64,000 nucleotides of DNA from Bermanella marisrubri (lineage in GTDB: Bacteria > Pseudomonadota > Gammaproteobacteria > Pseudomonadales > Oceanobacteraceae): NCBI RefSeq assembly GCF_012295615.1, contig NZ_CP051183.1, forward strand, positions 310,001 to 374,000, written 5' to 3'. The position numbers and the translations under genes were made by a program. The first letter of the stretch is position 1. Every line of letters begins with the position of its first letter. Shown here in pieces: positions 7,624 to 28,424 of the stretch. Below the pieces are notes generated by a model. That model did no database searches. It was not told where the DNA came from and saw only the letters and a program-made list of their open reading frames with translations.

Positions 7624-8385
7624 TTATATACTTTTTATATAGAACGACTCTCTCACCTCGTGATTGAGTGAACCGGTGTGATCAAAGCTTTGCTCTATCC
7701 ACTCGACGTGATTTTGTTTAATGGTGAGCATGGAACTGGCACGGGTACCGTAACTAGGGCTGACAATAAAGGGCGCACTTAGTAGGGTTTCCCATGGCTG
7801 GCCAATACCCGTGTCCGGTTGCTCTACTTGTGGATAAGTCTGTCGTCGATTGAGCAGTGGCATGGTCATGTTTTGACCCTGAGCATGCATTTCTAACTGT
7901 TTTTTGGCGTATAAGGTTTTTGGCCAAGGTGTATCGAGGCTAGCATTGCTCAAGCCATAAATACCTGCATGCAAAGCCAAAGGCTGTGTGTGCTGATTAC
8001 GATTGCTAATGAAGATACATTGTCGTTGATTGCCAATGATAAGATTAAAGCCGTCGTATAAATGAGCCTGATCGGCAATACCTTCAGCGTAGGTTTGTGG
8101 ATCTTCTTGAGCGATTAAATAGTCTTTAACTAAATGCCCTCGACTGATTTGCCCTTGGCGATGGGACGGTAACTGTCGAACATTAGTAAGTGCTGCAAAA
8201 TAGCCCGACTTGGTAACCCCCATCCAGGTACCGCCTGCTTCTAAATCTTTACCTGCTAAAACATGAGGGTGCTCTGGCCACCAGTGGGACTGTGTGCTGG
8301 GTCTTTCATGAAACTCGTCTCGGTTTGCCACCATCATGAGTGGTTGATCACTCAGTGGTTGCCATTGAAAGCTAATTAAACACAT
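7624..8385 (-). CDS. NRDE/TANGO2 family protein
   Basis: The family N-terminus MCLISF and the naming motif ANRDEFHERP are present, and length is about 253 residues from the ATG at 8385. That start puts the conserved Cys at position 2, as in other NRDE proteins, where an Ntn-hydrolase-like role has been proposed. TANGO2 relatives are linked to haem or lipid handling, but the bacterial function is not settled. A start at 8430 (ATG, 15 more residues) has a better ribosome site (AGGGAG, 4 bases away), so the true start is uncertain. It stands alone, divergent from the TauE/SafE gene. Confidence 0.8.
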   Translation of the reverse strand: MCLISFQWQPLSDQPLMMVANRDEFHERPSTQSHWWPEHPHVLAGKDLEAGGTWMGVTKSGYFAALTNVRQLPSHRQGQISRGHLVKDYLIAQEDPQTYAEGIADQAHLYDGFNLIIGNQRQCIFISNRNQHTQPLALHAGIYGLSNASLDTPWPKTLYAKKQLEMHAQGQNMTMPLLNRRQTYPQVEQPDTGIGQPWETLLSAPFIVSPSYGTRASSMLTIKQNHVEWIEQSFDHTGSLNHEVRESFYIKSI

Positions 8386-8571
8386 ATTTCTGCCAAAGAA
8401 GTCGTCAAGACTCACCAGTGTAAGGAGCATAATACTCCCTACGCAAGCGCTGGATTGTCAGAAGGTTTCTGGCAATTGCGATTCCTGCGTTCTGACCGCA
8501 TAATGGCTGCTTTTTATTAGTCGCTCGACAGGTCGTTGGGTGAGTTAAAAATTGCAAGATTGTGGGGAATA

Positions 8572-14245: not shown

Positions 14246-14683
14246 CTAAACGACTAATGTGGGACAGTGGGCGCGACCTGCAACTCGTTGCGATACGCTC
14301 CCGAGTATCATGCCATCTACATCTGTGTGGGTACCGTGAGAACCCATCACGATCAGATCCACGTCTTTCTCTTTGGCGAATTTGATAATGGTCTTGGATG
14401 GGCGACCGCCTTTCACAAAACCGCGGCAAGTGGCCTCTCTATCTGTAGCGTAAGCTTTCGCCTGCTCAACAACGCTTTTTGCGTATTCTGTAAGTGCCTG
14501 ATCGGGGATTTGCATATTGTCTGGGCGGACCATGGATAGCGAGGCTTCAAATAAGCTGTGGTGTTTGAACACGCACAGCAAGAAGATCTCGGCTTGCGTC
14601 AGCTGCTGAAGCTCAATGGCTTTGTCTAGCGCATGCAGTGCAGTTTTTGATCCATCAACAGCAACGAGAATACGTTTGAACAT
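14246..14683 (-). CDS. teaD: Universal stress protein, TeaD-type regulator of the ectoine transporter
   Basis: 145 residues, a single UspA domain. The ATP-binding signature G-x2-G-x9-G-S is visible as GSHGTHTDVDGMILGS near the C-terminus, so this is the nucleotide-binding class. It lies 23 bases after teaC at the end of the TRAP operon. In Halomonas elongata TeaD occupies the same position, binds ATP and lowers TeaABC activity. The name rests on that synteny plus the strong TeaA match. Usp proteins alone are not specific. Confidence 0.85.
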   Translation of the reverse strand: MFKRILVAVDGSKTALHALDKAIELQQLTQAEIFLLCVFKHHSLFEASLSMVRPDNMQIPDQALTEYAKSVVEQAKAYATDREATCRGFVKGGRPSKTIIKFAKEKDVDLIVMGSHGTHTDVDGMILGSVSQRVAGRAHCPTLVV

Positions 14684-14706
14684 AAGCTTGGCTCCAGCCT
14701 TTCTTC

Positions 14707-15993
14707 TTAGTCTGCGAAAGCGATATCCCTAAGGAACAAAGCAATATCAGGAAATACAACTAACAGTGTAGCTGAGAGAAGCAATATACCAATAAAGGGT
14801 GCAGTCCCCCGAACCACTTCCCAGTACGGCTTTTTGAATATCGCGATTGCCGTAAAGATATCGCAACCAAACGGCGGTGTTGCGGAACCAATAGCCACTT
14901 GTAGGGTAATGATGATACCCACATGTACTGGGTCCAACCCCGTTGCTTGGATGGCCGGAGCAAAGATCGGTGTTAAAACCAAAATCACTACAATAGGGTC
15001 AACGAACATGCAGGCGATAAAAAATGCAATGGAGATTGCCGCGAGTACACCCATGGGGCCCATATCATTGATACCTACGGCATCTAGGATGGTTTGCGGA
15101 ATTTGTGCAAACGAAATGATCCATGAGAAACCATTACCGACTCCAACCAAAATAAATACAACTGCAGTGATTAAGCCTGTGGATTTTGCAATGGTGTAGA
15201 TGTCTTTGCTGGATAAAGATTTAAATACGATGAACTCTAAAATTACCGCATAAAGAACGCAAACCGCTGCGGCTTCCGTGGGACTAAAGATACCTCCATA
15301 AATACCACCCACAATAATGATTGGAAACATCAATGGCCAGATCGCTCGCTGTGAAGCTTTCAATCGTTCAGACCAAGATGATTTTTCTTCTGTAGGCACA
15401 TTCTTAACCGTTGCATAAATTAAGCAGTACATGGAGAAAAAGAATAAAATCATCAAGCCTGGACCGATACCGGCTATGAATAATTCGGCGATAGAGGTTT
15501 CAGAAATAACGCCATAAATGATCATGCCGATACTGGGAGGAATTAAAAAGGCAATATCACTAGCGTTGATAATAAGCGCAAGTGAAAACGGATCACTGTA
15601 TCCGGCGCGAAGTAACTTTGGTCGCAGAGCCGAGCCTACCGCGACTACGGTCGCTTGGGTCGAGCCGGAAACTGCACCGAATAGTGTGCAAGACGTAGCC
15701 GTACTAATGGCCAAACCACCACGAATGTGGCCGATAAAAGTCATAACCATATCAATCAGCCGATTGGCGCTTTGCCCTCGCGTCATGATATCTGCAGCAA
15801 GAATAAACATAGGCACTGCGATGAGTGAGGCAGGCCGAATCCCCCCTAACACTTGTTGGATAAACGTATCCATTTGTCCCATGCCGCCAAACATCATGTA
15901 AAAACCTGTGAGTGCAGCGACGATGAGAGGAATCATCATGGGAAAGCCCATTAGAAGCAGCACAATCATGATGAGCATTAATGTTGTTGCCAT
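14707..15993 (-). CDS. teaC: Ectoine TRAP transporter large permease (DctM type)
   Basis: 428 residues, strongly hydrophobic, with about 12 membrane segments, as usual for DctM. Family stretches such as GSTQATVVAVGS, PPSIGMIIYGV and GSATPPFGCDIFTA are present. It is the Na+-coupled transport subunit. It follows teaB by 11 bases. Substrate assignment comes from the neighbouring TeaA-like binding protein. Confidence 0.92.
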   Translation of the reverse strand: MATTLMLIMIVLLLMGFPMMIPLIVAALTGFYMMFGGMGQMDTFIQQVLGGIRPASLIAVPMFILAADIMTRGQSANRLIDMVMTFIGHIRGGLAISTATSCTLFGAVSGSTQATVVAVGSALRPKLLRAGYSDPFSLALIINASDIAFLIPPSIGMIIYGVISETSIAELFIAGIGPGLMILFFFSMYCLIYATVKNVPTEEKSSWSERLKASQRAIWPLMFPIIIVGGIYGGIFSPTEAAAVCVLYAVILEFIVFKSLSSKDIYTIAKSTGLITAVVFILVGVGNGFSWIISFAQIPQTILDAVGINDMGPMGVLAAISIAFFIACMFVDPIVVILVLTPIFAPAIQATGLDPVHVGIIITLQVAIGSATPPFGCDIFTAIAIFKKPYWEVVRGTAPFIGILLLSATLLVVFPDIALFLRDIAFAD

Positions 15994-16004
15994 AATAATT
16001 CCCT

Positions 16005-16580
16005 TTAAACTTCTTTTTCCGTATCGGCGTAACCGTCAAGTACCCCGGTAGAAAGATAAACATCAGGACTTGTAACGTTTTTATAGGCTGTCAGTAAATA
16101 TTGAATACCAGTCACGGCAAATCCCAATGGTACCCATATATAGATCCACCAAATCTCGAATCCTAACGCTGGCAGGATACGACCTTTGTCGTAGACAGAC
16201 GCGACATATTCAAAAGCAAAGTAACTCAATAAAAACATTAGGCTAGAAGTGACGAGTGCGATCAGAGTCATGGCGATTTTGCGACCCTTATATGGCAACA
16301 TGTCGTAAATGGCTGACATACGAATATGTCGGCCGTGCCGTGCCGCATAACCAATACCGGCAAAGGTAATTAGTATGATCAGAATTCGATTAATTTCCCC
16401 TGAGAAGAATAAGCCCTGGCCAAAACCGAATCGGGCAATGACATTGACGCAAGTATTGAGTGCCATAAGCAGTACGCCGCTTGCCAGCATAAAAGCTTCA
16501 ATTTGGCTGATAATATTATCAAATTTTCCAAGTATACCGGGGAGTTCGGAGTCATATTGAAGAGAGTCTGAATCAGACAT
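16005..16580 (-). CDS. teaB: Ectoine TRAP transporter small permease (DctQ type)
   Basis: 191 residues with four hydrophobic segments. DctQ hallmarks such as SGEINRILIILITFAGIGYAAR and GRHIRMSAIYDMLP are present. It is the small membrane partner of TeaC. It is separated from teaA by 61 bases holding a perfect 13-base hairpin, which probably reduces permease expression relative to the binding protein. Confidence 0.92.
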   Translation of the reverse strand: MSDSDSLQYDSELPGILGKFDNIISQIEAFMLASGVLLMALNTCVNVIARFGFGQGLFFSGEINRILIILITFAGIGYAARHGRHIRMSAIYDMLPYKGRKIAMTLIALVTSSLMFLLSYFAFEYVASVYDKGRILPALGFEIWWIYIWVPLGFAVTGIQYLLTAYKNVTSPDVYLSTGVLDGYADTEKEV

Positions 16581-16603
16581 GATGTATTCCTAATCATCAA
16601 GAG

Positions 16604-16634
16604 ACAGCTTACGCTTTTTACAAGCGTAAGCTGT
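16604..16634 (-). terminator. Hairpin between teaA and teaB (partial terminator or mRNA stabiliser)
   Basis: 13 bases at 16604–16616 pair perfectly with 16622–16634 around a 5-base loop. There is no long T-run on the transcribed side, so stabilisation of the teaA mRNA 3' end or partial termination is more likely than a full stop. Confidence 0.7.
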
Positions 16635-16641
16635 AACTAGG

Positions 16642-17664
16642 TTAGCCTTCGACGGCTTTTAAGTCCTTCTTAAACTGCTCAAGCAGTTCTTTGCCGTCAT
16701 CGCCCGTCATTTCGATGAAAGTTTTTTCAACTTTAGGCGCTCGTTTTTTGAATGCTTCAATCTGCTTTTCGTTCAAACGAGTTACGGTGACTTTATCGCT
16801 AGCATCAGTGATTTTCTTGAGCGACTTATCAGCTAGGCCATCAATATGCTTAATGGTTTCATTGAATGCATAATCCGCTGCTTTGCGGATCATTTTTTGT
16901 TCGTCTTTAGATAAGTCGTCAAAGAACTCTTTGTTCGCCATAGATGCTGTCGTAAACCAGCCATGCTTCGTAAAGATAAGGTTTGGTGATACTTCATATA
17001 AACCACCAGATTCGATCCAGAAAATTGGGTTTTCCTGACCTTGAATCATATTTGTTTGCAGTGCGCCATATACTTCGCCCCAAGGTAGTGGTGTTGGGGT
17101 TGCACCAAACGCTTCATAGGTAGAGGACAAAAGTGGATTCGTCATCACGCGAATCTTCTTACCATTTAATTGGTTTGGTTTGGTAATAGGTTCGTCTACC
17201 GTCATTACCATTTCACCTTCGGGATACATTTTTAGAAGCTCAAGCCCTTGCTCTTCATAGAGTTCAACAAAGTCTTCGTTAATGGCTTTGCTTGTACGGA
17301 AGAACTCGATAACCGTTTCCATATCAGTAGGCATTAAATAAGGGATGAAAAAGATCTGTGCTTCGGGGATTAGCGAGCCAGTGAAGCCTGGACTTTGGTT
17401 TACGAACTGAAGAATGCCTGCTTGGGTTTGCTCCATAATATCATCTGATTCACCCAGTTCGCCGAAACGATATATCTTTAACGAGTGATCTGAGTTTTCT
17501 TCGATATATTCTTTGAATTTGTGAGCATAAACGTCCTGAACATCACCTTCATATTCTTCATGGGCGTAGCGCCAAGTATCTGCATTGACAAAAGCGGCCA
17601 TGCCCATGGTAGCTGTGAGGCATGTTAAAGCGGTGAGCTTCTTAAAGTGACTAGAAATGGACAT
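16642..17664 (-). CDS. teaA: Ectoine/hydroxyectoine-binding periplasmic protein (DctP type)
   Basis: About 340 residues with a signal peptide ending near AAFVNA. The mature N-terminus reads DTWRYAHEEYEGDVQDV, and RFGELGESDDIMEQTQ, NQSPGFTGSLIPEAQ and PLPWGEVYGALQT follow. From memory this is nearly identical in these segments to TeaA of Halomonas elongata, the ectoine-specific binding protein. GGAGGG precedes two adjacent ATGs. The second (17664) has the better 5-base spacing, the first (17667) only 2. Upstream is a regular three-half-site palindrome. The catabolic operon at 22.4–27.6 kb supports the substrate. Confidence 0.93.
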   Translation of the reverse strand: MSISSHFKKLTALTCLTATMGMAAFVNADTWRYAHEEYEGDVQDVYAHKFKEYIEENSDHSLKIYRFGELGESDDIMEQTQAGILQFVNQSPGFTGSLIPEAQIFFIPYLMPTDMETVIEFFRTSKAINEDFVELYEEQGLELLKMYPEGEMVMTVDEPITKPNQLNGKKIRVMTNPLLSSTYEAFGATPTPLPWGEVYGALQTNMIQGQENPIFWIESGGLYEVSPNLIFTKHGWFTTASMANKEFFDDLSKDEQKMIRKAADYAFNETIKHIDGLADKSLKKITDASDKVTVTRLNEKQIEAFKKRAPKVEKTFIEMTGDDGKELLEQFKKDLKAVEG

Positions 17665-17667
17665 CAT

Positions 17668-18285
17668 GTCCCTCCGATTTTTGACATGTTTTGCTTATTT
17701 TTCAAACAAAACATAATTTGTGTGTTTACGTGTAAACAGTTGTTTACACACACTAATTTGAGCAACGATACATCCACTGCAAGAGTTGCTGTTCAAATCA
17801 AACTCGTTGTGTAGTGAATGCAGAGTTGTAAGAACCTTAACAGCATGTCAAAACTGAAACGAATTCGCAACTGCACTGTTCTCAATCGGATTAAGCGTGT
17901 TTTTGGGTTTAAGAATTGTGACCTAGGTTTATTTTTATATTGAATGTTGCTATATGCATTTTGAGTGCCACCAGATAAAAATTCAGAAAAAGTCGACGAA
18001 CACTTTATTTTTTATTTTTGCATCGGTTACACTTCGCGCCAATTGTGTTGCACAACTGTTTTATTTTTATCATAAAATATCAATAAAACTGTCGTTAAAC
18101 GTTAAGAAAATAAAAAAATGCCATTGTGTGGTGATTATCAATTCAACAAAATGCGTCATCTTTGTGCATAAACCGTTGAACTAAATAACACATGGTGTAT
18201 GTTTCACAGTAGCTTTATGCAATAAAGCCCGAAGACACCTGTATTGAATTGCAGGGGTCCAAACTTAAAATAGTGAGGAGAAAGC
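17668..18285. promoter_or_regulatory. Divergent teaA / porin control region
   Basis: About 620 AT-rich bases without a credible gene. Close to teaA are the TGTTTAC operator array (17723–17747) and a TGTTTTG/CAAAACA inverted repeat (17687–17693 with 17707–17713). Further out, TTTGAGCAAC and a near-complement about 30 bases on form another inverted repeat (about 17757–17797). On the porin side TTGTG-TTG-CACAA is a small palindrome near 18042–18054. No clear sigma-70 promoter was identified. Confidence 0.5.
17723..17747. promoter_or_regulatory. Three-half-site palindromic operator upstream of teaA
   Basis: TGTTTAC (17723–17729), its inverse GTAAACA (17732–17738) and TGTTTAC again (17741–17747), each separated by exactly GT. 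This gives two overlapping perfect palindromes on a 9-base period, about 60–85 bases before the teaA start. A transcription factor site is inferred. No regulator gene is adjacent. Confidence 0.6.
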
Positions 18286-19404
18286 ATGTTTAAAAAAACA
18301 TCTTTAGCATTAGCAGTTGCAGGACTGGCTTTTGCGGGCAATTCAATGGCAGCCCCAAGTGTAAATATTTCGGGCTTTGTTGATTTGGGTTTAGAGTATT
18401 ATTCTGGTGATGGCACTGGTTTGATCGCTCAAGGGTTTAATTCACCTCAGAGCAATACTGATGAACGTAACCTTGCGATGAATAACCCAGTTGTATCTCG
18501 CTTTATCGTATCTGGTTCAGAAGAGCATGCCAATGGTTGGACCACTGGTTATCGCATTGAGCAAGAAGTGAACGCACTTGACGATGGCGGTGCCTCTTTC
18601 AATACTCGTCAAGGTTATATTTCTCTGTCTAAAGACAAGCATAACATCACTATCGGTAGTCAATGGTCGCCACTATTCGAATACAGTGCTTGGAATTCCA
18701 TGAAGTCAGAAGGTCATGGTTATGGTGCTTACTACTTTACAGCGTGTGAATTGCCTGGCTCTTTAAGCTGTGGTTTCCGTAACGATAGCACCATCAACTA
18801 CACCTATGGTGGTGGTGGTTATAGCACTGATCCATTTACATTCACTGTTGCAGCACATATTAACGAAGATGGTCGAGTGTTAGAGGACGTGAATGGTAAT
18901 CCAATCAAAGATGCAGATGGCAACGAACAAACAATGAATGACGCGGGTATTACCGGTATGTCTATCGGTGGTGCTGCTTCATTTGGTCCGGCTACCGTAA
19001 ACTTTGCTTACATTCAATCTATTGTCACTGAATCAGATGTTGCAAAAGCGAATGGTGGACTAGCTGCTCCTTCTTTGATGAGTGTAGGTGCGAAGTACCG
19101 TGCAGCTGAAGAGTTAGAACTAGGTTTTAACTATCAAACTGTTGATAAAGATGACGGCACTGACGATGAAAGAACTTCCATGTCTTTTGGTGGTATGTAC
19201 AACGTCGCACCTGATCTAAGTGTTCACGCAGGTTATGGTTTTGGTGAAGATGACAATGGTGCTGAGCTAGAGAGCAATATCTATGCTCAAGTTATCAAAA
19301 ATATCTCAGATACATTCCATGTGCGTTTAGAGCTTGAACAAGTAAGCACTAAAAACTCTGGTGACGACTCCGTAGCCGTTGTTTACTTGCGTCAATCATT
19401 CTAA
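18286..19404 (+). CDS. Outer-membrane porin (gram-negative general porin type)
   Basis: 372 residues. The signal peptide MFKKTSLALAVAGLAFAGNSMA is followed by PSVNISGFVDLGLEYYSG, a porin-type first strand. It has many alternating Tyr/Gly β-strands and a terminal aromatic F (YLRQSF), as needed for outer-membrane insertion. An acidic loop contains DGNEQ-type repeats. GTGAGGAGAAAGC gives a strong ribosome site. It is divergent from teaA, so it may supply the outer-membrane step for ectoine or another small solute, but this is inference from position. A bidirectional terminator follows. Confidence 0.85.
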   Translation: MFKKTSLALAVAGLAFAGNSMAAPSVNISGFVDLGLEYYSGDGTGLIAQGFNSPQSNTDERNLAMNNPVVSRFIVSGSEEHANGWTTGYRIEQEVNALDDGGASFNTRQGYISLSKDKHNITIGSQWSPLFEYSAWNSMKSEGHGYGAYYFTACELPGSLSCGFRNDSTINYTYGGGGYSTDPFTFTVAAHINEDGRVLEDVNGNPIKDADGNEQTMNDAGITGMSIGGAASFGPATVNFAYIQSIVTESDVAKANGGLAAPSLMSVGAKYRAAEELELGFNYQTVDKDDGTDDERTSMSFGGMYNVAPDLSVHAGYGFGEDDNGAELESNIYAQVIKNISDTFHVRLELEQVSTKNSGDDSVAVVYLRQSF

Positions 19405-19443
19405 TTATTAGCTACTGTTAATATAGCGAACAATTAGATTATT

Positions 19444-19478
19444 AAAAAACCGCATGCTTTCTGGCATGCGGTTTTTTT
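19444..19478. terminator. Bidirectional terminator between porin and exonuclease genes
   Basis: A 14-base perfect stem (19444–19457 with 19464–19477) rich in ACCGCATGC, a 6-base loop, A-run on the left and T-run on the right. It serves both convergent genes. Confidence 0.9.
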
Positions 19479-19525
19479 ATGTTTAATTTTGGCTAGTAGA
19501 ATAATAAAAAACGAGTACTAAGTAT

Positions 19526-20242
19526 TTAGATATCGTCTAGCCATAGATTTTTGACTGGTGTTTGCGGAGTGAAATGATGAGCAACCTGAGCAATAAATAA
19601 TTCTGCTGTGGCTTGCGCATCAATTAATGCATTATGAGACTGATATTGAGGTAGCGAATAACGCTCACGACAATTATTCAAACGGATGCCGCCTACGGGT
19701 TTATTTAAAATTCTTCCGGTTAGGCCTTGTCTTGCTTTCAGTGCCTTCTTTTCTATTTCCATTGTATCAATGAGAGGAAATTGTAAAGTCTCTCCTAAAT
19801 GTTCTTTGAGCGTATTATTTAAAAACAGTCTTTCGATACGTTGGAAGTGAACCACTAGGATGTGCTCACTGAGTTTCTCAAGCAATGGCTCTAATAATCG
19901 CTCAATTCTCGGTGCGCTTTGTATCTCACTGTGTTTAATGTGATGAATTAGTATTGACTCCTCTGATAGCGGAGTATTCGGTCTGACTACCCAATACACT
20001 GCATTGTTACAATATATTCGTTGCAAGCTAAATGGCACCATGCCTATGCTAATTATACTATCGTCATTGGGATTGAGGCCGGTTGTCTCAAAATCCAAGG
20101 CCATAAAAGAAACCGCCTCTAAAGGCGTTTCTCCTGAAACAATACCTTTGTAGTAGAAGTCTTTTACAGCTGGGTGTTCAGCCTCTAATTGCAATGTTTG
20201 ATAACGCTGTGGCCAATCAAACTTCGGCTTCTTAAATAACAT
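19526..20242 (-). CDS. 3'-5' exonuclease, DnaQ/RNase T-like
   Basis: 238 residues. Exo I reads ALDFETTGLNP (the DxE metal pair). Exo II is present in the form HFQRIERLFL, and Exo III gives SHNALIDAQAT with the H-x4-D pair. It is therefore a complete DEDDh exonuclease. Its start overlaps the stop of the upstream CBS/DUF294 gene (TAATG), so the two are translationally coupled. This exonuclease/DUF294 pairing recurs in marine gammaproteobacteria and pseudomonads, but the joint function is not known to me. Confidence 0.85.
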   Translation of the reverse strand: MLFKKPKFDWPQRYQTLQLEAEHPAVKDFYYKGIVSGETPLEAVSFMALDFETTGLNPNDDSIISIGMVPFSLQRIYCNNAVYWVVRPNTPLSEESILIHHIKHSEIQSAPRIERLLEPLLEKLSEHILVVHFQRIERLFLNNTLKEHLGETLQFPLIDTMEIEKKALKARQGLTGRILNKPVGGIRLNNCRERYSLPQYQSHNALIDAQATAELFIAQVAHHFTPQTPVKNLWLDDI

Positions 20243-22149
20243 TATCGCGGCCTGTTTTGAGAGTGATAACAGAATTTTAAGAAGCTTTGTGCTTTATCTA
20301 AGACTTGAAATGCTTCTTTCAAATTCCTACGCTCAAAGCTGGAAAGCTTGTCTGGTTCAATGTTGTTGTCCGGTTCTTCTCCGGCTTCAATGGTTAAGGC
20401 TTGGTGACGAATTCGCACCATAGAAATATATTCTAAGGCATCGCTCATGTCTTGGGCTTTACCAGGTGGTAGGATGTTCGCATCCATTATATCTTGAATG
20501 CGTTCGAACGAATTTTGTGAACGGCTGGCCACGGCTAATGCATGCACTCGAATTACATCACTCAAGGGTGCGGTACCGCGTCGCTTTAAGTTAATGGATT
20601 TCCGGTGCTTACCGTCCTGCTCCATAACAAAGCCTTTGAAAAAACCCAGCGGCGGTGTGCGATTCAACGCATTGCGTGCTAATGCGGATAAGAATAAGCG
20701 GTTTTCTTGAGCTTTATCCGCAATAAAACTTTGTAACTTGGCGGCCCATTTAGTGCGTCCCCATACTCCATCCAAATCGAAAAAAATCGAGCTATTTAAA
20801 AGTGCCTCTGGGTTAGGCTGTTCAATCCATTCGCTAAATTGCTCTTTCCATTGATCGAGCGTCATGCGCCATTTGGGATTGGTTGCCATGATATCGCCAC
20901 TGCAATAGATATAGCCACAAGCATTGAGACCATCGCTGACAAATTTGGATAACCTCGCAAAATACTCATTGTGCTGTTCGGCGTCAAACTCGTTGCTAAG
21001 AATCAAAGCATTATCTTGGTCTGTGACTACCAATTGCTCATCACGTGCCATGGATCCAAGTGCCAAGAAACAATACGGAACCGGTGGTGGTCCCAATTCT
21101 TCTTCTGCCAGTTCGAGCAAGCGTTGCTTGAAACTGCGTCCGATCACTGCCATAGCGCTGCCGATCATATGCGAGTTCGCATCCTCATTTACCATACGAA
21201 CAAATACAGAAGGAAGGTCTTTAGCGTATTGTGCTAAATCATGTACGCTTGGTTGAGTAAAAATACCACGTACAAACAAAATACTGCTTTGTGATTCATG
21301 GCGTACAATATCAGACAAGGAAACCACGCCAATGGGTTTGCGCTTTTTCATAATAGGTAAGTGATGGACGTTGAAACGCAGCATGGTTAATGTCGCTTCA
21401 AATACATAGGCGTTGTGGTCCATTACCATGAGTTCTTCTGACATGGCTTCGCAGATATTAGTATCTAAGGGTAAACCAACTGCTAGAACACGCTTACGTA
21501 GATCGCGATCGGTTATGATGCCTACCAACTGCCGGGTGTCATCCTCTACTTCTTTATATTCGTCCACTATTAAGACGGAGGAAACACGTTCCTCTGTCAT
21601 AACTTCTGCCGCTTGTTTCACTGTGGCATTTGTCGGCAGCGTGACAGGTTCACGAGCTAATAGTGAAGCGATTTTGACAGTGGTTAAATCGTTGGCATCT
21701 TGTTGGTTGTTGACGGCGCTGCGCAGGGATGCATTTTCATCGCTACCAAAGAACTCAGCAAAATCATCAAATTCGTCACAAAATTGATTATATATATCCA
21801 CGGGAATGCAATAGAGCAGGGTGTCCTCTAGCGCCTTAACTGGGAAACGCACGCGGCGGTTCATCATCAAACCCATTTGCCCAAAGCAATTGCCTTCGTC
21901 TAGACGGTTGTAGAGTTTTCCTGAGCGACGATAGGTTTCGACTGAACCACTGCGAATAACGTACAAATCTTGAATGGGCTCAGCGAACTTTAAAATATCG
22001 CTATCGGCACGGTAATAGGCGACTTCTACCGATGATGCAAGGCGGTTTAATGCATCCTCAGGTAATTCATCAAAAGGGGAATGTTCTTGTAAGAAGTTCG
22101 CAATTTCTAGTTGTTCGACCTGCAAAATGCACACCTTCTTCTTTTTCAT
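20242..22149 (-). CDS. Cyclic-nucleotide-binding/CBS/DUF294 putative nucleotidyltransferase
   Basis: About 635 residues. Domain order is a cNMP-binding domain (about 10–130), two CBS repeats (about 160–290), a DUF294 nucleotidyltransferase-like domain with GSMARDEQ and TDQDNAL (GlnD-like G-S…D-x-D), and DUF294-C. It is likely a cytoplasmic sensor of nucleotide second messengers. Start is uncertain: ATG 22149 has no ribosome site, and a TTG at 22125 (giving MQVEQLEIANFL) has AAGAAGGTG upstream and may be the real one. It overlaps the exonuclease gene by one base. Confidence 0.82.
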   Translation of the reverse strand: MKKKKVCILQVEQLEIANFLQEHSPFDELPEDALNRLASSVEVAYYRADSDILKFAEPIQDLYVIRSGSVETYRRSGKLYNRLDEGNCFGQMGLMMNRRVRFPVKALEDTLLYCIPVDIYNQFCDEFDDFAEFFGSDENASLRSAVNNQQDANDLTTVKIASLLAREPVTLPTNATVKQAAEVMTEERVSSVLIVDEYKEVEDDTRQLVGIITDRDLRKRVLAVGLPLDTNICEAMSEELMVMDHNAYVFEATLTMLRFNVHHLPIMKKRKPIGVVSLSDIVRHESQSSILFVRGIFTQPSVHDLAQYAKDLPSVFVRMVNEDANSHMIGSAMAVIGRSFKQRLLELAEEELGPPPVPYCFLALGSMARDEQLVVTDQDNALILSNEFDAEQHNEYFARLSKFVSDGLNACGYIYCSGDIMATNPKWRMTLDQWKEQFSEWIEQPNPEALLNSSIFFDLDGVWGRTKWAAKLQSFIADKAQENRLFLSALARNALNRTPPLGFFKGFVMEQDGKHRKSINLKRRGTAPLSDVIRVHALAVASRSQNSFERIQDIMDANILPPGKAQDMSDALEYISMVRIRHQALTIEAGEEPDNNIEPDKLSSFERRNLKEAFQVLDKAQSFLKFCYHSQNRPR

Positions 22150-22419
22150 CAAAGTAAAAGTTTAGCAGTTTGAATGCAAACAATCTGCTTCGCATTTTTC
22201 CTTTTAGAGCTCTTACAACGGTTGAAGATCGCTTCATAAGGGTCTAGGCTGAGGGTCAGCTTTATGTTTCATGAAACTACAATTTTTATTCTTGCTTGAG
22301 CGATTAGGTTGTTTCTCACAATAACTGTGAATGATCGTTAGGTGGAATGAATATTGTATGTTTGTGGCAATAGCGAATAGATCGAATGATCTATGACACT
22401 CAACTTTTTTGGGAGGTCT
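22150..22419 (+). promoter_or_regulatory. Control region of the ectoine catabolic operon
   Basis: About 270 bases between divergent genes with three palindromes: GTTTCATGAAAC (22266–22277, perfect), TCACA-ATAAC-TGTGA (22316–22330) and ATAGATC-GAAT-GATCTAT (22377–22394). The last lies just before the ribosome site and could act as an operator or an mRNA hairpin. No regulator such as DoeX or EnuR is encoded nearby. Confidence 0.5.
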
Positions 22420-23577
22420 ATGCAAAATTATTGGCAGCAGACACTTTCAAGTGCCCATCAGTTCCGTCATGACTTGCACGCTCATCCTGAGTTGGGTTGG
22501 CAAGAGCAGCGTACGGCGTCCAAAATTCGTGAAGCATTATCCTCTCTTAATATCCCATGGCGCGAGTGCGCCGAAACAGGAACCTTGGGGTTTCTAAATC
22601 CTAATGGTAGCGGGAGGCACATCGCCTTACGTGGTGATATTGATGCTTTACCCATCTCAGAAAAAACCGATAAAGCCTATTCGTCCAACCATGAAGGCTG
22701 TATGCATGCCTGTGGTCATGATGGGCATACTGCGACTTTGATGGCGACAGCCCGTTGGCTTAAAAATGTAGAGGATAGTTTGCCGGGTCCTGTTACCTTG
22801 CTGTTTCAGCCAGCTGAAGAAGGCGGGCATGGCGCTAAGAAAATGATCGAAGATGGCGCACTGGATGGCGTCGATATGATCTTTGGTTGGCACAACTGGC
22901 CAGCGTTGAAGATGGGCCAATTGGTTTGCCCTGAAGGAATTGTTATGTGTGGTAATGGCACCTTCGAAATTGAAGTCATCGGCAAAGGTGGCCATGCTAG
23001 TCAACCTGAACTGTGTCGTGATCCTGTTTTGGCAGCCAGTGCCATGGTGCTTAACGTACAGCAAATTATCAGTCGCCGATTACCTCCGCAGCAATCTAAT
23101 GTGGTAAGCATTACCTCAATAGAGGCACCCAGTGCTGCCACAGTGATTCCTGAACGCGTTAAAATTGGTGGCAGTATTCGCATCGCCACAGAGCAAGCGC
23201 GACAAACCATCAATTCCCTAATTCAAGAAATCTGCGAGCAAACCGCGGCGACCTATGGTGTGCAAGCTAAAGTACAAATCATTCCACGCTACCAGGCCAC
23301 GGTTAATCACAATGAACAGGCTCAAGCCGTTCGCGATGCTTGGGTAAAAATCAGTGATGATCATTCTCTAGAACATGATATCGCGGTTCCCATCATGGCT
23401 TCAGAAGACTTTAGTTATTACTTAAAAGAAGTACCTGGAGCGTTCGCTCTGATTGGTGCTGATGACGGTGAAGATCATCACCATCCTTGTCACAGTCCTT
23501 ATTACGATTTTAATGATTCACTGGTGGAGCCAGTGACCAAATTGTATGCGCAACTTGTTGGCGCGACGTTACCTTAA
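22420..23577 (+). CDS. doeB2: M20 amidohydrolase, probable N-acetyl-L-2,4-diaminobutyrate deacetylase
   Basis: 385 residues from the ATG at 22420, chosen because GGGAGG lies 3 bases before it. M20 landmarks are HAHPELGW, GDIDALPI, HACGHDGHTATL, QPAEEGGHGAKKM and EDFSYYL, with CHSPYYDFND near the end. This family includes hippurate- and N-acetyl-amino-acid hydrolases. As first gene of an operon with ectoine hydrolase, the likely substrate is N-acetyl-diaminobutyrate (DoeB2 type, different from the AstE-like DoeB of Halomonas). That substrate is inferred from context. Confidence 0.83.
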   Translation: MQNYWQQTLSSAHQFRHDLHAHPELGWQEQRTASKIREALSSLNIPWRECAETGTLGFLNPNGSGRHIALRGDIDALPISEKTDKAYSSNHEGCMHACGHDGHTATLMATARWLKNVEDSLPGPVTLLFQPAEEGGHGAKKMIEDGALDGVDMIFGWHNWPALKMGQLVCPEGIVMCGNGTFEIEVIGKGGHASQPELCRDPVLAASAMVLNVQQIISRRLPPQQSNVVSITSIEAPSAATVIPERVKIGGSIRIATEQARQTINSLIQEICEQTAATYGVQAKVQIIPRYQATVNHNEQAQAVRDAWVKISDDHSLEHDIAVPIMASEDFSYYLKEVPGAFALIGADDGEDHHHPCHSPYYDFNDSLVEPVTKLYAQLVGATLP

Positions 23578-23663
23578 TCCTAATTTGAGGATTTGAAACA
23601 ACCGAAAAGTAGTACATCAATGACATGTTTAGGGTCAATGATTGGCCTTTAAGGAGAGAGAGT

Positions 23664-24938
23664 ATGAGCATTTTTCAGCAACGGGAATCAGAAGTCCGAG
23701 GTTATTGTCGTGTCTATCCCGTGGTATTTGATACCGCTGTAAATGCACGACAGAAGGACACAGAAGGCAATGAGTACATTGACTTCTTTGCCGGTGCCGG
23801 TGTACTGAATTTTGGCCACAATAATGAGCGAATGAAAAACGCCATGATCGAGTATTTACAAAATAATGGCGTGACACATAGCTTGGATATGCATAGTAAA
23901 GCCAAGCAAGCATTCATGGAACGATTTACAAAAACCGTATTAGAACCCCGAGGCATGCCACATAAAATGCAATTTATGGGGCCAACGGGTACCAACTCGG
24001 TTGAAGCCGCATTAAAAATTGCACGCCGTGCCACTGGCAGAAGTGAAGTGGTTGCATTCACTCATGGTTTCCATGGTATGACGCTAGGTGCGTTAGCTTG
24101 TACTGCGAACTCTGTCTTTCGAAACGCGGCCGGTGTTCCACTCAATCACGTTTCCCACTATTCATTTGGTTGCGAGAAGCCTTGCCAAGGCTGCAAAATG
24201 GATTGCGGTGTGCAAAGCATAAAAGCACTAGGGGAGCGCTATAAAGATTCTTCTAGTGGTCTTGAGCCACCGGCTGCATTCTTGGTTGAAACTATTCAAG
24301 CGGAAGGCGGTGTGAATGTTGCCAGTGAAGAATGGTTAAAAGCAGTAAGTGATTTGGCACGGGAACTAGGCTCCGTTTTCATCGTTGATGATATTCAAGT
24401 GGGATGTGGTCGAACAGGTTCGTATTTTAGTTTTGATGGCATGGACTTAGATCCTGATATTGTGTGTCTCGCAAAAGGCATAGGCGGTATGGGGACACCA
24501 TTGGCCATGAATCTTGTTAAACCTGAAATTGATAGCCATTGGAATCCCGGTGAGCATACCGGCACTTTCCGCGGTCAAGGGTTGTCGTTTGTTGCTGGTA
24601 CAGAAGCGTTATCGTATTTCGAGAATGATGAGCTAATGAATACAGTAAAAGGACACGCCAGCACCATGCTGAACGCAGTACAACCATTAGAGGACAAACT
24701 CGATGGTGTACAAGTGCGCGGCAAAGGCATGATTTTAGGTTTGGATGTGTCTACCGGCGAAAACGCAAAAGCCATTGTCACCAAGTGTTTTGAAGATGGT
24801 TTGCTTGTTTCTGCCTGCGGTACGGGTGGTCGAGTGGTGAAGTTAATTCCGCCTCTGACTATTCCTGAGCAAGATCTAAAAGAAGGTTTATCTATCCTCT
24901 TGCGCCATGTTAGTGAAGTCATGGGAGGTGCAGCATGA
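23664..24938 (+). CDS. doeD: EctB-like class III aminotransferase in the ectoine catabolic operon
   Basis: 424 residues from the ATG at 23664 (AAGGAGAG upstream). It is PLP-dependent. Landmarks are GPTGTNSVEAALKIARRATGR, GFHGMTLGALA, VDDIQVGCGRTG and the Lys-bearing CLAKGIGGMGTP. It resembles EctB (diaminobutyrate/2-oxoglutarate transaminase) more than the Halomonas DoeD, but its place between the deacetylase and DoeA argues for the reverse, catabolic reaction to aspartate semialdehyde. Unusual: C170, C174, C177 and C181 form a CX3CX2CX3C cluster in an insert that EctB lacks. Its stop overlaps the doeA start. Confidence 0.85.
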   Translation: MSIFQQRESEVRGYCRVYPVVFDTAVNARQKDTEGNEYIDFFAGAGVLNFGHNNERMKNAMIEYLQNNGVTHSLDMHSKAKQAFMERFTKTVLEPRGMPHKMQFMGPTGTNSVEAALKIARRATGRSEVVAFTHGFHGMTLGALACTANSVFRNAAGVPLNHVSHYSFGCEKPCQGCKMDCGVQSIKALGERYKDSSSGLEPPAAFLVETIQAEGGVNVASEEWLKAVSDLARELGSVFIVDDIQVGCGRTGSYFSFDGMDLDPDIVCLAKGIGGMGTPLAMNLVKPEIDSHWNPGEHTGTFRGQGLSFVAGTEALSYFENDELMNTVKGHASTMLNAVQPLEDKLDGVQVRGKGMILGLDVSTGENAKAIVTKCFEDGLLVSACGTGGRVVKLIPPLTIPEQDLKEGLSILLRHVSEVMGGAA

Positions 24939-26221
24939 TACCTCGTGATGACATGACGTTTCCTTTTGAGGAATACGAGCGCCGTATAACTGAACTGCGT
25001 CACCGCATCATGGAACGCCACCTTGATGCCGTGGTGATCACAGATCCAGAAAACATTATGTATTTGACGGATTACCAAACCACAGGTTATTCGTTTTTTC
25101 AGGCTTTGGTTGTACCGTTAGAAGGTGAGCCATTCATGATTACGCGCGCGTTAGAGGCGTCAAACATTCATGCGCGTACTTGGGTTGAGCGAACGCGTCC
25201 TTATCCAGATACAGGGGACGCCATTCAGATGCTGGTGGATGCGCTACGTGAGTTTGGGTTATCTAAAAAGCGCATTGGTTATGAGCGCAATAGTTATTTC
25301 TTTCCCGCGTATCAACAAGATTTCATCCATACCACACTAAGAGACGCTAAGTTATTAGATTGCTTCGGTATTGTTGAACAGGGTCGTATCTGTAAGTCAG
25401 ATGTTGAAATTGAGCTTATGAAAAAAGCGGCTCATGCTACAGAAATGGGTATGCAAGCGGGCATCGAAGCGAGTGTGGTAGGCGCTACTGAAAATGAAAT
25501 CGGCGCAGCAATCAGTGATGCCATGTTTCGTGCAGGTGGCGAGCCACCTGCGGTTATGCCGTACGTGACTTCTGGGCCAAGAACCATGATTGGCCATGCT
25601 ACATGGGAAGGGCGTATTGTTGAGCCAAACGAACACGTGTTCTTAGAAGTGGGTGGTTGTTATCGCCGTTATCATACCGCCATGATGCGAACCGTGGTCA
25701 TGGGCACCTTGACGGACAGCATGTACGAAGCGCAAGAAAAGATGAAGCATGCTTTAGACTGTCTGCACCGTGATATTCAGCCTGGAATGACGGTGAGCGA
25801 TGCGGATAACTTAGTGCGAAATATTATTACCGACAACAGTGTTGGGGCCTCTCTAATTACGCGCTCTGGTTATTCCATCGGTATTGCTTTCCCGCCAAGT
25901 TGGGATGAAGGCTACATTGTGAGCTTGAAGCAAGGGGAATCACAAGTCCTGCAGCCGGGCATGACTTTCCATATTATTCCGTGGATGTGGGGTGTAGATG
26001 GAAATAAAACGTGTGGTATTTCAGATACGATTCGCATCACGGAAGAAGGTTGTGAATCCTTCTTTACTCTAGATCGTGATTTCGTTATCAAGCCAGATCA
26101 GTCCAGCAAATCCATTACCGAATCCGTCACCAAATTGGATACCACAAAGAAAAAAGTAAAAGGAGTGGATCAAAAGGAAACCTCTAAAGGTGACGACTCT
26201 AGCAGTAAGAAAAACGGATAA
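24935..26221 (+). CDS. doeA: Ectoine hydrolase DoeA (M24 creatinase/prolidase family)
   Basis: 428 residues. An N-terminal creatinase-like domain (about 10–150) precedes an M24 pita-bread catalytic domain (about 160–385) with GHATWEGRIVEPNEHVFLE-type metal-site strands and PGMTFHIIPWMWG. It opens the ectoine ring to N-acetyl-diaminobutyrate. The start ATG overlaps the doeD stop (ATGA) and has GGGAGG upstream. Odd: after the catalytic domain comes a tail of about 45 residues rich in Lys, Ser and Asp (KKKVKGVDQK, SSSKKNG) that looks disordered. Confidence 0.88.
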   Translation: MIPRDDMTFPFEEYERRITELRHRIMERHLDAVVITDPENIMYLTDYQTTGYSFFQALVVPLEGEPFMITRALEASNIHARTWVERTRPYPDTGDAIQMLVDALREFGLSKKRIGYERNSYFFPAYQQDFIHTTLRDAKLLDCFGIVEQGRICKSDVEIELMKKAAHATEMGMQAGIEASVVGATENEIGAAISDAMFRAGGEPPAVMPYVTSGPRTMIGHATWEGRIVEPNEHVFLEVGGCYRRYHTAMMRTVVMGTLTDSMYEAQEKMKHALDCLHRDIQPGMTVSDADNLVRNIITDNSVGASLITRSGYSIGIAFPPSWDEGYIVSLKQGESQVLQPGMTFHIIPWMWGVDGNKTCGISDTIRITEEGCESFFTLDRDFVIKPDQSSKSITESVTKLDTTKKKVKGVDQKETSKGDDSSSKKNG

Positions 26222-26231
26222 GGAGAGGACC

Positions 26232-27593
26232 ATGTTAATTGCGACCAATCCCTACACAGAGAGCAAAATTGCAGAATACCCTTCATTGAAAGGTTCGCAA
26301 ATTCATGAGCACATCCAGCTTGCCCATGATGCATTTCCTGCCTGGCGAGACCAGCCTTTCAGTGAGCGCGCAAAAATACTCAAAGACATTGCCGCAGAAC
26401 TTAGAAAACAAAAAGATCATCTTGCATTGTTAATGGCCGATGAAATGGGTAAGCCAATTAAAGAGGGTGGGCCAGAAGTAGAAAAAGCGGCGACCTGCTT
26501 CGAGCATTATGCGGATAAAGGTGAAAGTTATTTAGACACGGAGTATCTCGAATCCGATGCCAGTGAGAGCTATGTAAGTTACGAACCATTGGGTGCTCTA
26601 CTGGGTATTTTGCCATGGAATGCGCCGTTGTGGTTGGCAGCACGATATTTGGCACCGGCGCTCATGGCGGGCAATACCTGCACATTAAAACATGATCCTC
26701 ATGTGCCTGGCTGTGCGCAAGCCATTATCGACGTGATCAGTGGCGCAGGTGCTCCGGAAAACATTGTGGTGAATCTACCGTTGGAGACACCAGACGTAGA
26801 AGCGGCGATTCGTGATCCCCACATAATGGCGGTATCTTTTACTGGTTCTGCCGGCGGTGGTGCAAAGGTGGCGTCCATGGCAGCGTCGGAAATCAAGCAT
26901 TCAGTATTGGAGTTGGGTGGTTCAGATCCATTCATTGTGATGTCAGATGCGGATTTAGAAAAAGCTATGGATGTAGCGACCTTGTCTCGCATTATTAACG
27001 CTGGTCAGTCATGTATCGCTGCCAAACGTATTCTGGTAGAAAAATCGGTCTACGAGCAATTTGTAGAAGGTGTAAAAAGCCGATTGGAAAAATTAAAGAT
27101 GGGTGATCCTACTGACATTAATACGGACATAGGTCCCATTGCACGCAAAGACTTACAAGAGAATCTTCATCGCCAAGTTCAGGAGTCTATTAAACAAGGT
27201 GCGACTTGTTTGTTAGGTGGTGAGATGCCAAAAGATAAAGGCTATTTCTATCCACCCACATTGCTTACCGACGTTAAGCCAGGTACGTGCGCCTTTTTAG
27301 AAGAAACCTTTGGTCCAGTAATGGCCATAACGCCCGTAGCGGATATTGAAGAAGCAATAACCTTGGCTAACGATACTGAGTATGGGTTGGGAGCGGCGCT
27401 TTGGATGAAAGATCAAGCCAAAGCTAAGCTGATTGCTAAGCGCTTGTATACGGGACAGGTTTCCATTAATGGCATAGTGAAAACCGATCCGCGCTTGCCC
27501 AGTGGCGGTGTTAAGCGTTCGGGTTTTGGTCGCGAGCTAGGGCCTCATGGTATAAAAGAGTTTGTTAATGCTAAGCAAGTATGGGTTAAGTAG
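26232..27593 (+). CDS. doeC: NAD(P)-dependent semialdehyde dehydrogenase, probable aspartate-semialdehyde dehydrogenase DoeC
   Basis: 453 residues, the aldehyde dehydrogenase superfamily, close to the succinate-semialdehyde group. ELGGSDPF holds the general base Glu, C261 lies in GQSCIAAKR, and EETFGPV is present. In this operon it should oxidise aspartate semialdehyde to aspartate, the last step of ectoine use, as DoeC does. Start at 26232 follows AGGAGAGG. It begins 10 bases after doeA. Confidence 0.87.
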   Translation: MLIATNPYTESKIAEYPSLKGSQIHEHIQLAHDAFPAWRDQPFSERAKILKDIAAELRKQKDHLALLMADEMGKPIKEGGPEVEKAATCFEHYADKGESYLDTEYLESDASESYVSYEPLGALLGILPWNAPLWLAARYLAPALMAGNTCTLKHDPHVPGCAQAIIDVISGAGAPENIVVNLPLETPDVEAAIRDPHIMAVSFTGSAGGGAKVASMAASEIKHSVLELGGSDPFIVMSDADLEKAMDVATLSRIINAGQSCIAAKRILVEKSVYEQFVEGVKSRLEKLKMGDPTDINTDIGPIARKDLQENLHRQVQESIKQGATCLLGGEMPKDKGYFYPPTLLTDVKPGTCAFLEETFGPVMAITPVADIEEAITLANDTEYGLGAALWMKDQAKAKLIAKRLYTGQVSINGIVKTDPRLPSGGVKRSGFGRELGPHGIKEFVNAKQVWVK

Positions 27594-27632
27594 CAGGTAA
27601 TTTTGTTTAAGCGTATCAAGGAATGGATAAGC

Positions 27633-28424
27633 ATGATTAAAAACCTAATTTTTGTAGGTATAGCCGTCATTCTTTTTTCAAAGGAGACACATGCTCAACC
27701 TGTAACACTTCCTGTTTTCGTATATCACGATGAAGCGCCGTTACACCTTGATTCCAATGAGCTAGACCTTTCTCAGGCATGGGCTAAAACCATGAACGCT
27801 CAACAATCTCAATATTGCTTTGTGATACAAAAAATAACTCGCCCAGCGTTAAATCACTGGGTGGAGGGAGAATCACCCTTTATGATCTTGTGGGCGAATA
27901 CACTCTGGTTTCGCTCTAAAGATACCAATATAAAAGCGACAAAACCTTTGTTTTGGGATGCGGATGTTGTGGTTAGCTTGAGAGATAATCCTGTTCAGTT
28001 GCAGACGTTCGATGACTTGATTGGTTTAAGACTTGGTGCCCGTGACGGTCACTATTACAAAGGTCTTGAAGAGTGTTTTTCTGATGGACGCATAAAAAGG
28101 GTCGATTCGAATAGTAGTAAAGACAACCTGAGAAGCTTAATGAATAGTGAGATCGACGCTTATATCGATAGTCGTAGTTCTGTACTCTTCACGAAGCAGA
28201 ATAATGCGTATGAGCAGCCTGTCTATATTGCAGGCTTAGCCCATGATGCATTCTCAAGACATTTAGTCGTTTCGAGAGACTACTTTGAATTGCTACCATT
28301 TTTGAATCAACAGATTGAACAGTTAAAGGCTTCTAGTGAGTGGCAGTCTTATATACAAGGTTTTGCTATTCATCGCTTGGTCGATCCATTTGAATTGGAC
28401 TTGAAAGAACTAGACCAATACTGA
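27633..28424 (+). CDS. Periplasmic solute-binding protein, family 3-like
   Basis: 263 residues. A signal peptide ends near ETHA|QP. The mature protein follows the SBP_bac_3 layout (two α/β lobes; FDDLIGLRLGARDGHYY resembles the DLKGKKVGV hinge of the family). No ABC permease or ATPase is nearby, so it may be a free sensor or orphan receptor. Start chosen at ATG 27633 (AAGGA 11 bases upstream); a TTG at 27603 would disturb the signal peptide. It lies 39 bases after doeC and may be in that transcript. Confidence 0.7.
   Translation: MIKNLIFVGIAVILFSKETHAQPVTLPVFVYHDEAPLHLDSNELDLSQAWAKTMNAQQSQYCFVIQKITRPALNHWVEGESPFMILWANTLWFRSKDTNIKATKPLFWDADVVVSLRDNPVQLQTFDDLIGLRLGARDGHYYKGLEECFSDGRIKRVDSNSSKDNLRSLMNSEIDAYIDSRSSVLFTKQNNAYEQPVYIAGLAHDAFSRHLVVSRDYFELLPFLNQQIEQLKASSEWQSYIQGFAIHRLVDPFELDLKELDQY

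Follow-up and report, generated by a model that had tools for sequence, protein, structure and literature searches.

Gene content of the tea and doe region

The window, a 64,000-nucleotide stretch of the Bermanella marisrubri genome, contains two operons with a predicted role in ectoine metabolism: a teaABCD-type TRAP transporter operon on the reverse strand (14246-17667), which an earlier note on this DNA had already pointed out, and the operon doeB2-doeD-doeA2-doeC on the forward strand (22393-27593), for which the enzyme assignments of that note also hold. The transporter operon encodes the universal stress protein (Usp) TeaD (14246-14683; PF00582; best PDB match 3hgm, TeaD, 3.8e-51), the large TRAP permease TeaC (14707-15993; TIGR00786, 360 bits; 84-89% identity with teaC of two relatives), the small TRAP permease TeaB (16005-16580; a weak YiaM match, 71-72% identity with the teaB of relatives), and the predicted ectoine-binding protein TeaA (16642-17667). 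The proposed assignment of TeaA was supported by comparison with PDB solute-binding proteins: the window protein matches 3gyy and 2vpn with an E-value of about 1e-160 and is 74% identical over 311 aa to Halomonas elongata TeaA (2VPN), versus 58% to UehA (3FXB), and the score of 537 bits compares with 160 bits for the best other match, 4pfi. Of the 116 sites that differ between TeaA and UehA, 68 carry the TeaA residue in the window protein and 17 the UehA residue. Ectoine is thus the predicted substrate, as judged from the 74% identity. A TeaA protein was found in 3 of 56 genomes, the window's own included, and in the other two it is encoded away from doe. A perfect palindrome, GTGTAAACAGTTGTTTACAC (17730-17749), lies 62-82 bp upstream of teaA and is a possible operator, although the teaA upstream regions of two relatives lack it. 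A sigma54-like sequence, GTGGCACTCAAAATGCA, is located about 300 bp upstream of teaA (17955-17971), is within chance expectation and has no clear conservation.

The first gene of the catabolic operon, doeB2 (22393-23577), encodes a predicted M20-type N-alpha-acetyl-DABA deacetylase, which scores 675.5 bits with the DoeB2 model NF038260 (cut-off 550) and retains the M20 metal motif GCMHACGHDGH; its start is more likely the ATG at 22420, with GGGAGG directly upstream, than 22393. The diaminobutyrate transaminase gene doeD (23625-24938) is assigned by NF006733 (591.6 bits, above the cut-off), and its product scores 514.8 bits with the EctB model TIGR02407, below the cut-off of 552.2. The predicted ectoine hydrolase gene doeA2 (24935-26221) scores 797.4 bits with the DoeA_2 model NF038259 (cut-off 575) and 199.7 bits with the canonical DoeA/EutD model TIGR02993, below the equivalog cut-off of 613. 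DoeA2 can be aligned with DoeA 6TWK over its full length, and, relative to the canonical M24 pattern, the two share E, H and Y substitutions at the first three metal-ligand positions. The last gene, doeC (26190-27593, start probably about 26232), matches PF00171, and the semialdehyde dehydrogenase models score below their cut-offs; its putative identity as an aspartate-semialdehyde dehydrogenase follows from its place as the conserved fourth gene of the operon. Starting 9 bp past doeC, an ORF (27603-28424) encodes a short periplasmic-type protein with no Pfam match above cut-off, and a 25%-identical paralogue is encoded near the ectA-ectC-ask operon of the same genome (L033, 662-1420).

As the earlier note described, teaA and doeB2 are separated by 4.7 kb containing a general porin gene (18286-19404, forward strand; PF13609) and a pair of reverse-strand genes for an exonuclease (19526-20242; PF00929) and a nucleotidyltransferase-like protein with cNMP, CBS and DUF294 domain matches (20242-22152). 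Orthologues of the exonuclease/DUF294 pair adjoin a BCCT transporter gene in 11 of 14 relatives (six of these neighbours confirmed by Pfam and the others by 73-81% identity to those six), and a second, paralogous pair in the window's genome (L216, 6050-10956) lies beside genes for a sodium:solute symporter and an acetyl-CoA synthetase-like protein. Given these neighbours, the pair in the window may be a transport-linked element. They also favour a further-reaching idea, that tea, the pair and doe work together as an osmolyte locus, with the pair modulating the transport of solutes coupled to sodium; however, three relatives carry the pair with no adjoining transporter, and the BCCT copies of the window's genome are located elsewhere, so that we consider this reading unlikely.

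Comparison with known ectoine systems

The earlier note regarded the M20 deacetylase, the lack of DoeX or EnuR and the unlinked transporter as unusual. These features proved to be normal for a published type of gene cluster, that of Methylotuvimicrobium and Methylophaga (PMC7192451). In M. alcaliphilum, the genes are arranged as doeB-D-A-C with no EnuR or AsnC regulators, and the transporter is encoded elsewhere (PMC7192451); the Methylophaga doeBDAC genes, which belong to the same DoeA2/DoeB2 set as the window operon, are 80-81% identical to those of M. alcaliphilum (PMC7192451, PMC11067125). A primer published for M. alcaliphilum translates to MIERDDM, the consensus N-terminus of DoeA2. The pathway has been observed in vivo with M. 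alcaliphilum doeA and doeB mutants (PMC7192451), and ectoine breakdown after nitrogen depletion requires doeA (PMC11067125); the M. alcaliphilum DoeA2 and DoeB2 proteins were mostly insoluble on expression, and their activities do not come from purified enzymes. NCBIfam already contains models for both proteins. A literature search on DoeB2 returned no papers. A scan of species genomes gave 80 named loci, almost all of which have a whole doe cassette with an unchanged gene order. No true EnuR, DoeX or TeaABC was found in the examined flanks of these loci, where the matches to EnuR, Ehu and Tea references are weak paralogues. Both the cassette and its flanks follow this pattern in 11 relatives of the window's genome as well. 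The published cluster, the 80 loci and the 11 relatives together show that a deacetylase of the M20 family, a lack of these regulators and a transporter encoded apart characterize the operon type and not the strain. The description of tea and doe as one region split in two was likewise not sustained, since the tea-doe neighbourhood is not conserved and hence does not represent an evolutionarily fixed unit that was divided. The annotation is sound, but the operon type, here with a Tea importer nearby, was already known, and as a find it is ordinary.

Besides the gene order, the DoeA2-type hydrolase and the lack of EnuR or AsnC, the window system shares with M. alcaliphilum 20Z and Methylophaga a transporter outside the operon, an ectoine-making host and an EctR gene beside the ect operon. 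Unlike these methylotrophs, the host is a member of the family that includes Thalassolituus (e.g., Thalassolituus maritimus) and Oceanobacter, has a true TeaABCD importer close to the operon, and carries ectB apart from ectA-ectC-ask. Halomonas elongata, with its teaABCD and doe genes, has a 74%-identical TeaA, a TeaD protein and the same pathway steps, whereas the window DoeA is only distantly related to its counterpart, DoeB belongs to another enzyme family, and the operon lacks DoeX and EnuR. The Ruegeria and Sinorhizobium clusters (ueh or ehu-eutABCDE-asnC-ssd-atf-enuR) convert ectoine to aspartate by the same chemistry; in contrast to them, the window operon lacks eutABC, the genome lacks EnuR, the hydrolase and the deacetylase are of other types, and the transporter is different.

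A single quick tree with no outgroup, built from the concatenated sequences of the four Doe proteins, places the window cassette beside that of an Oleiphilus bin (SH-aLRT 100) and, at the next level, with Gilvimarinus (100). Members of the Thalassolituus/Oceanobacter family are placed elsewhere in the tree, including a genome of the same genus (G003), the version of which differs. The doe operon has probably moved horizontally into the lineage of the window, as far as protein phylogeny can indicate. Foreign base composition was considered and rejected: the GC content of the 22-28 kb segment, 0.42-0.48, resembles that of the surroundings.

Candidate regulation of the doe operon

The reported lack of a local EnuR or DoeX regulator was borne out, with no such gene accompanying the operon. 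A whole-genome search for EnuR (MocR/GabR) gave no match at E<=0.001, whereas 45 of 56 genomes yielded MocR-type proteins with the same query at 1e-5. Four AsnC/Lrp proteins are encoded in the genome, none of them within the window, with at most 35% identity to the Rhizobium reference. Several other modes of control were tried and rejected. EctR-like boxes occur in two copies upstream of ectA, whereas the matches upstream of doeB2 and teaA reach only 10-11 of 18 positions, which argues against control of doe or tea by EctR. No riboswitch or known RNA was found. The search for an operator shared by the doeB2 upstream regions yielded no palindrome common to the whole family; the one recurring element was a TAGAC dyad, present in 6 of 64 loci. 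In Methylophaga loci (e.g., L069 and L073), the palindrome TCAAAACATGCACTGTTTTGA is located between a sigma54-like promoter and the doeB2 start codon and is a possible repressor site.

The motif enriched in the doeB2 upstream regions, TTGGAACAnnnnTTGCW, corresponds to the -24/-12 pattern of sigma54 promoters. Sites scoring at least 21 precede doeB2 in 27 of 64 non-redundant loci, compared with 34 of 812 other ORFs from the same loci and about one in shuffled sequences; at a score of at least 23, the counts are 11 of 88 and 0 of 812. Such sites are present in all five Gilvimarinus loci, in 11 of 12 from Methylophaga and in all four from Thalassolituus, but in none from Marinomonas (0/9), Limnobacter (0/4) or Photobacterium (0/3). 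Because the loci are related, and because the scoring scheme was fixed after the motif had first been noticed in a few of them, the p-values are too small and overstate the case; the contrast with the control ORFs is still large. In the window itself, the site GTGGAATGAATATTGTA (22342-22358, forward strand) upstream of doeB2 is degenerate, with GG present at -24 and GC at -12 changed to GT, and the nearest relative has no good site; the position of the window site coincides with that of consensus sites in several Gilvimarinus.

These observations make the sigma54 sites a candidate for the missing doe regulation, consistent with the published induction under nitrogen starvation. We lean slightly towards the explanation that in many hosts the cassette is under the control of RpoN and an enhancer-binding protein, for instance NtrC, in place of EnuR or DoeX, with ectoine serving as a nitrogen reserve. 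In its favour, the window's genome encodes RpoN, and doe transcripts rise under nitrogen starvation in M. alcaliphilum, though modestly, by about 1.3-1.6 fold, and this species requires doeA for reusing the nitrogen of ectoine (PMC11067125). NtrC-like boxes are in slight excess (5/62 vs 14/808), which is only suggestive. No ORF adjoining the cassette has both signature motifs of an enhancer-binding protein, and a literature search on RpoN and ectoine found nothing relevant. The fuller proposal, held tentatively and falling just short of an even call, is that doeBDAC-type breakdown would be under RpoN and a nitrogen-responsive activator and not a local ectoine-sensing repressor, that ectoine would act as a nitrogen store, and that the lineage of the window would be drifting from such control. 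The regulatory pattern across relatives is the part worth testing; if the sigma54 link is true, it would offer a testable answer to how clusters with no EnuR are switched on.

Ectoine synthesis and the probable physiological role of tea and doe

A search of the genome for ectABC, suggested earlier, located ectA and ectC but not an operonic ectB. The ectA-ectC-ask operon (L033, 5152-7633; C1:3014000-3028000 of the genome) is accompanied by a divergent EctR-like MarR gene, and a solitary ectB (L053, 8140-9396; genome positions 1015000-1033000) lies 2 Mb away. Its product scores 603.9 bits with TIGR02407 (cut-off 552.2), and the gene is about 50% identical to ectB of relatives with intact ectABC. 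In all 10 relatives examined, ectB is situated between ectA and ectC, from where it is gone here. The possibility that DoeD is a necessary substitute for the missing ectB was rejected, given the solitary EctB and the failure of doeD to rescue an ectB deletion in M. alcaliphilum (PMC11067125).

The predicted pathway begins with the TeaABCD-type importer, which would recover ectoine from outside the cell. In the cytoplasm, DoeA2 would convert ectoine to N-alpha-acetyl-DABA, DoeB2 would release DABA and acetate, DoeD would yield aspartate semialdehyde and glutamate, and DoeC would form aspartate. Salt stress would call for ectoine import and recovery through Tea, while flux through the Doe enzymes would reclaim nitrogen and carbon when ectoine is unneeded or nitrogen is short.

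The earlier note proposed that the strain uses ectoine as a carbon and nitrogen source. On this view, the genes would be a dedicated nutritional module with which the strain could grow on ectoine from its surroundings as the sole source of both elements. An importer and a complete pathway on one chromosome segment, adjoined by a general porin, agree with this view, which we nevertheless consider somewhat doubtful. The host has its own ectoine synthesis genes, which makes growth at the expense of ectoine just one of several conceivable roles, and the known nutritional clusters usually contain EnuR/AsnC and Ueh or Ehu transporters, which are absent here. In addition, H. elongata TeaABC is an osmoregulated recovery system, the nutritional role of which is unproven (PMC5924519). 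It is as likely, or more so, that the cell recovers and recycles ectoine that it has made itself. Because the cell also makes ectoine, tea and doe very probably act jointly to manage its own ectoine pool, by import through Tea and breakdown by doeB2-D-A2-C; as the two are adjacent only in this genome, their joint function is argued from biochemical logic.

The elements new to this analysis are the sigma54 sites of doeB2, the link between the exonuclease/DUF294 pair and BCCT transporters, the displaced ectB, and the clustering of the cassette with those of Oleiphilus and Gilvimarinus. In marine environments, ectoine is both a common osmolyte and a nutrient rich in nitrogen. A survey based on the EutD proteins of V. 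diabolicus, R. pomeroyi and S. meliloti used identity limits of 55-65% (PMC13188858) and is expected to miss the DoeA2 type, which is only about 30% identical to EutD. Ectoine consumers among marine Gammaproteobacteria may therefore be under-counted.

Elsewhere in the window, the region 7624-8430 encodes a protein of the TANGO2 (NRDE) family, which is better known from eukaryotes.
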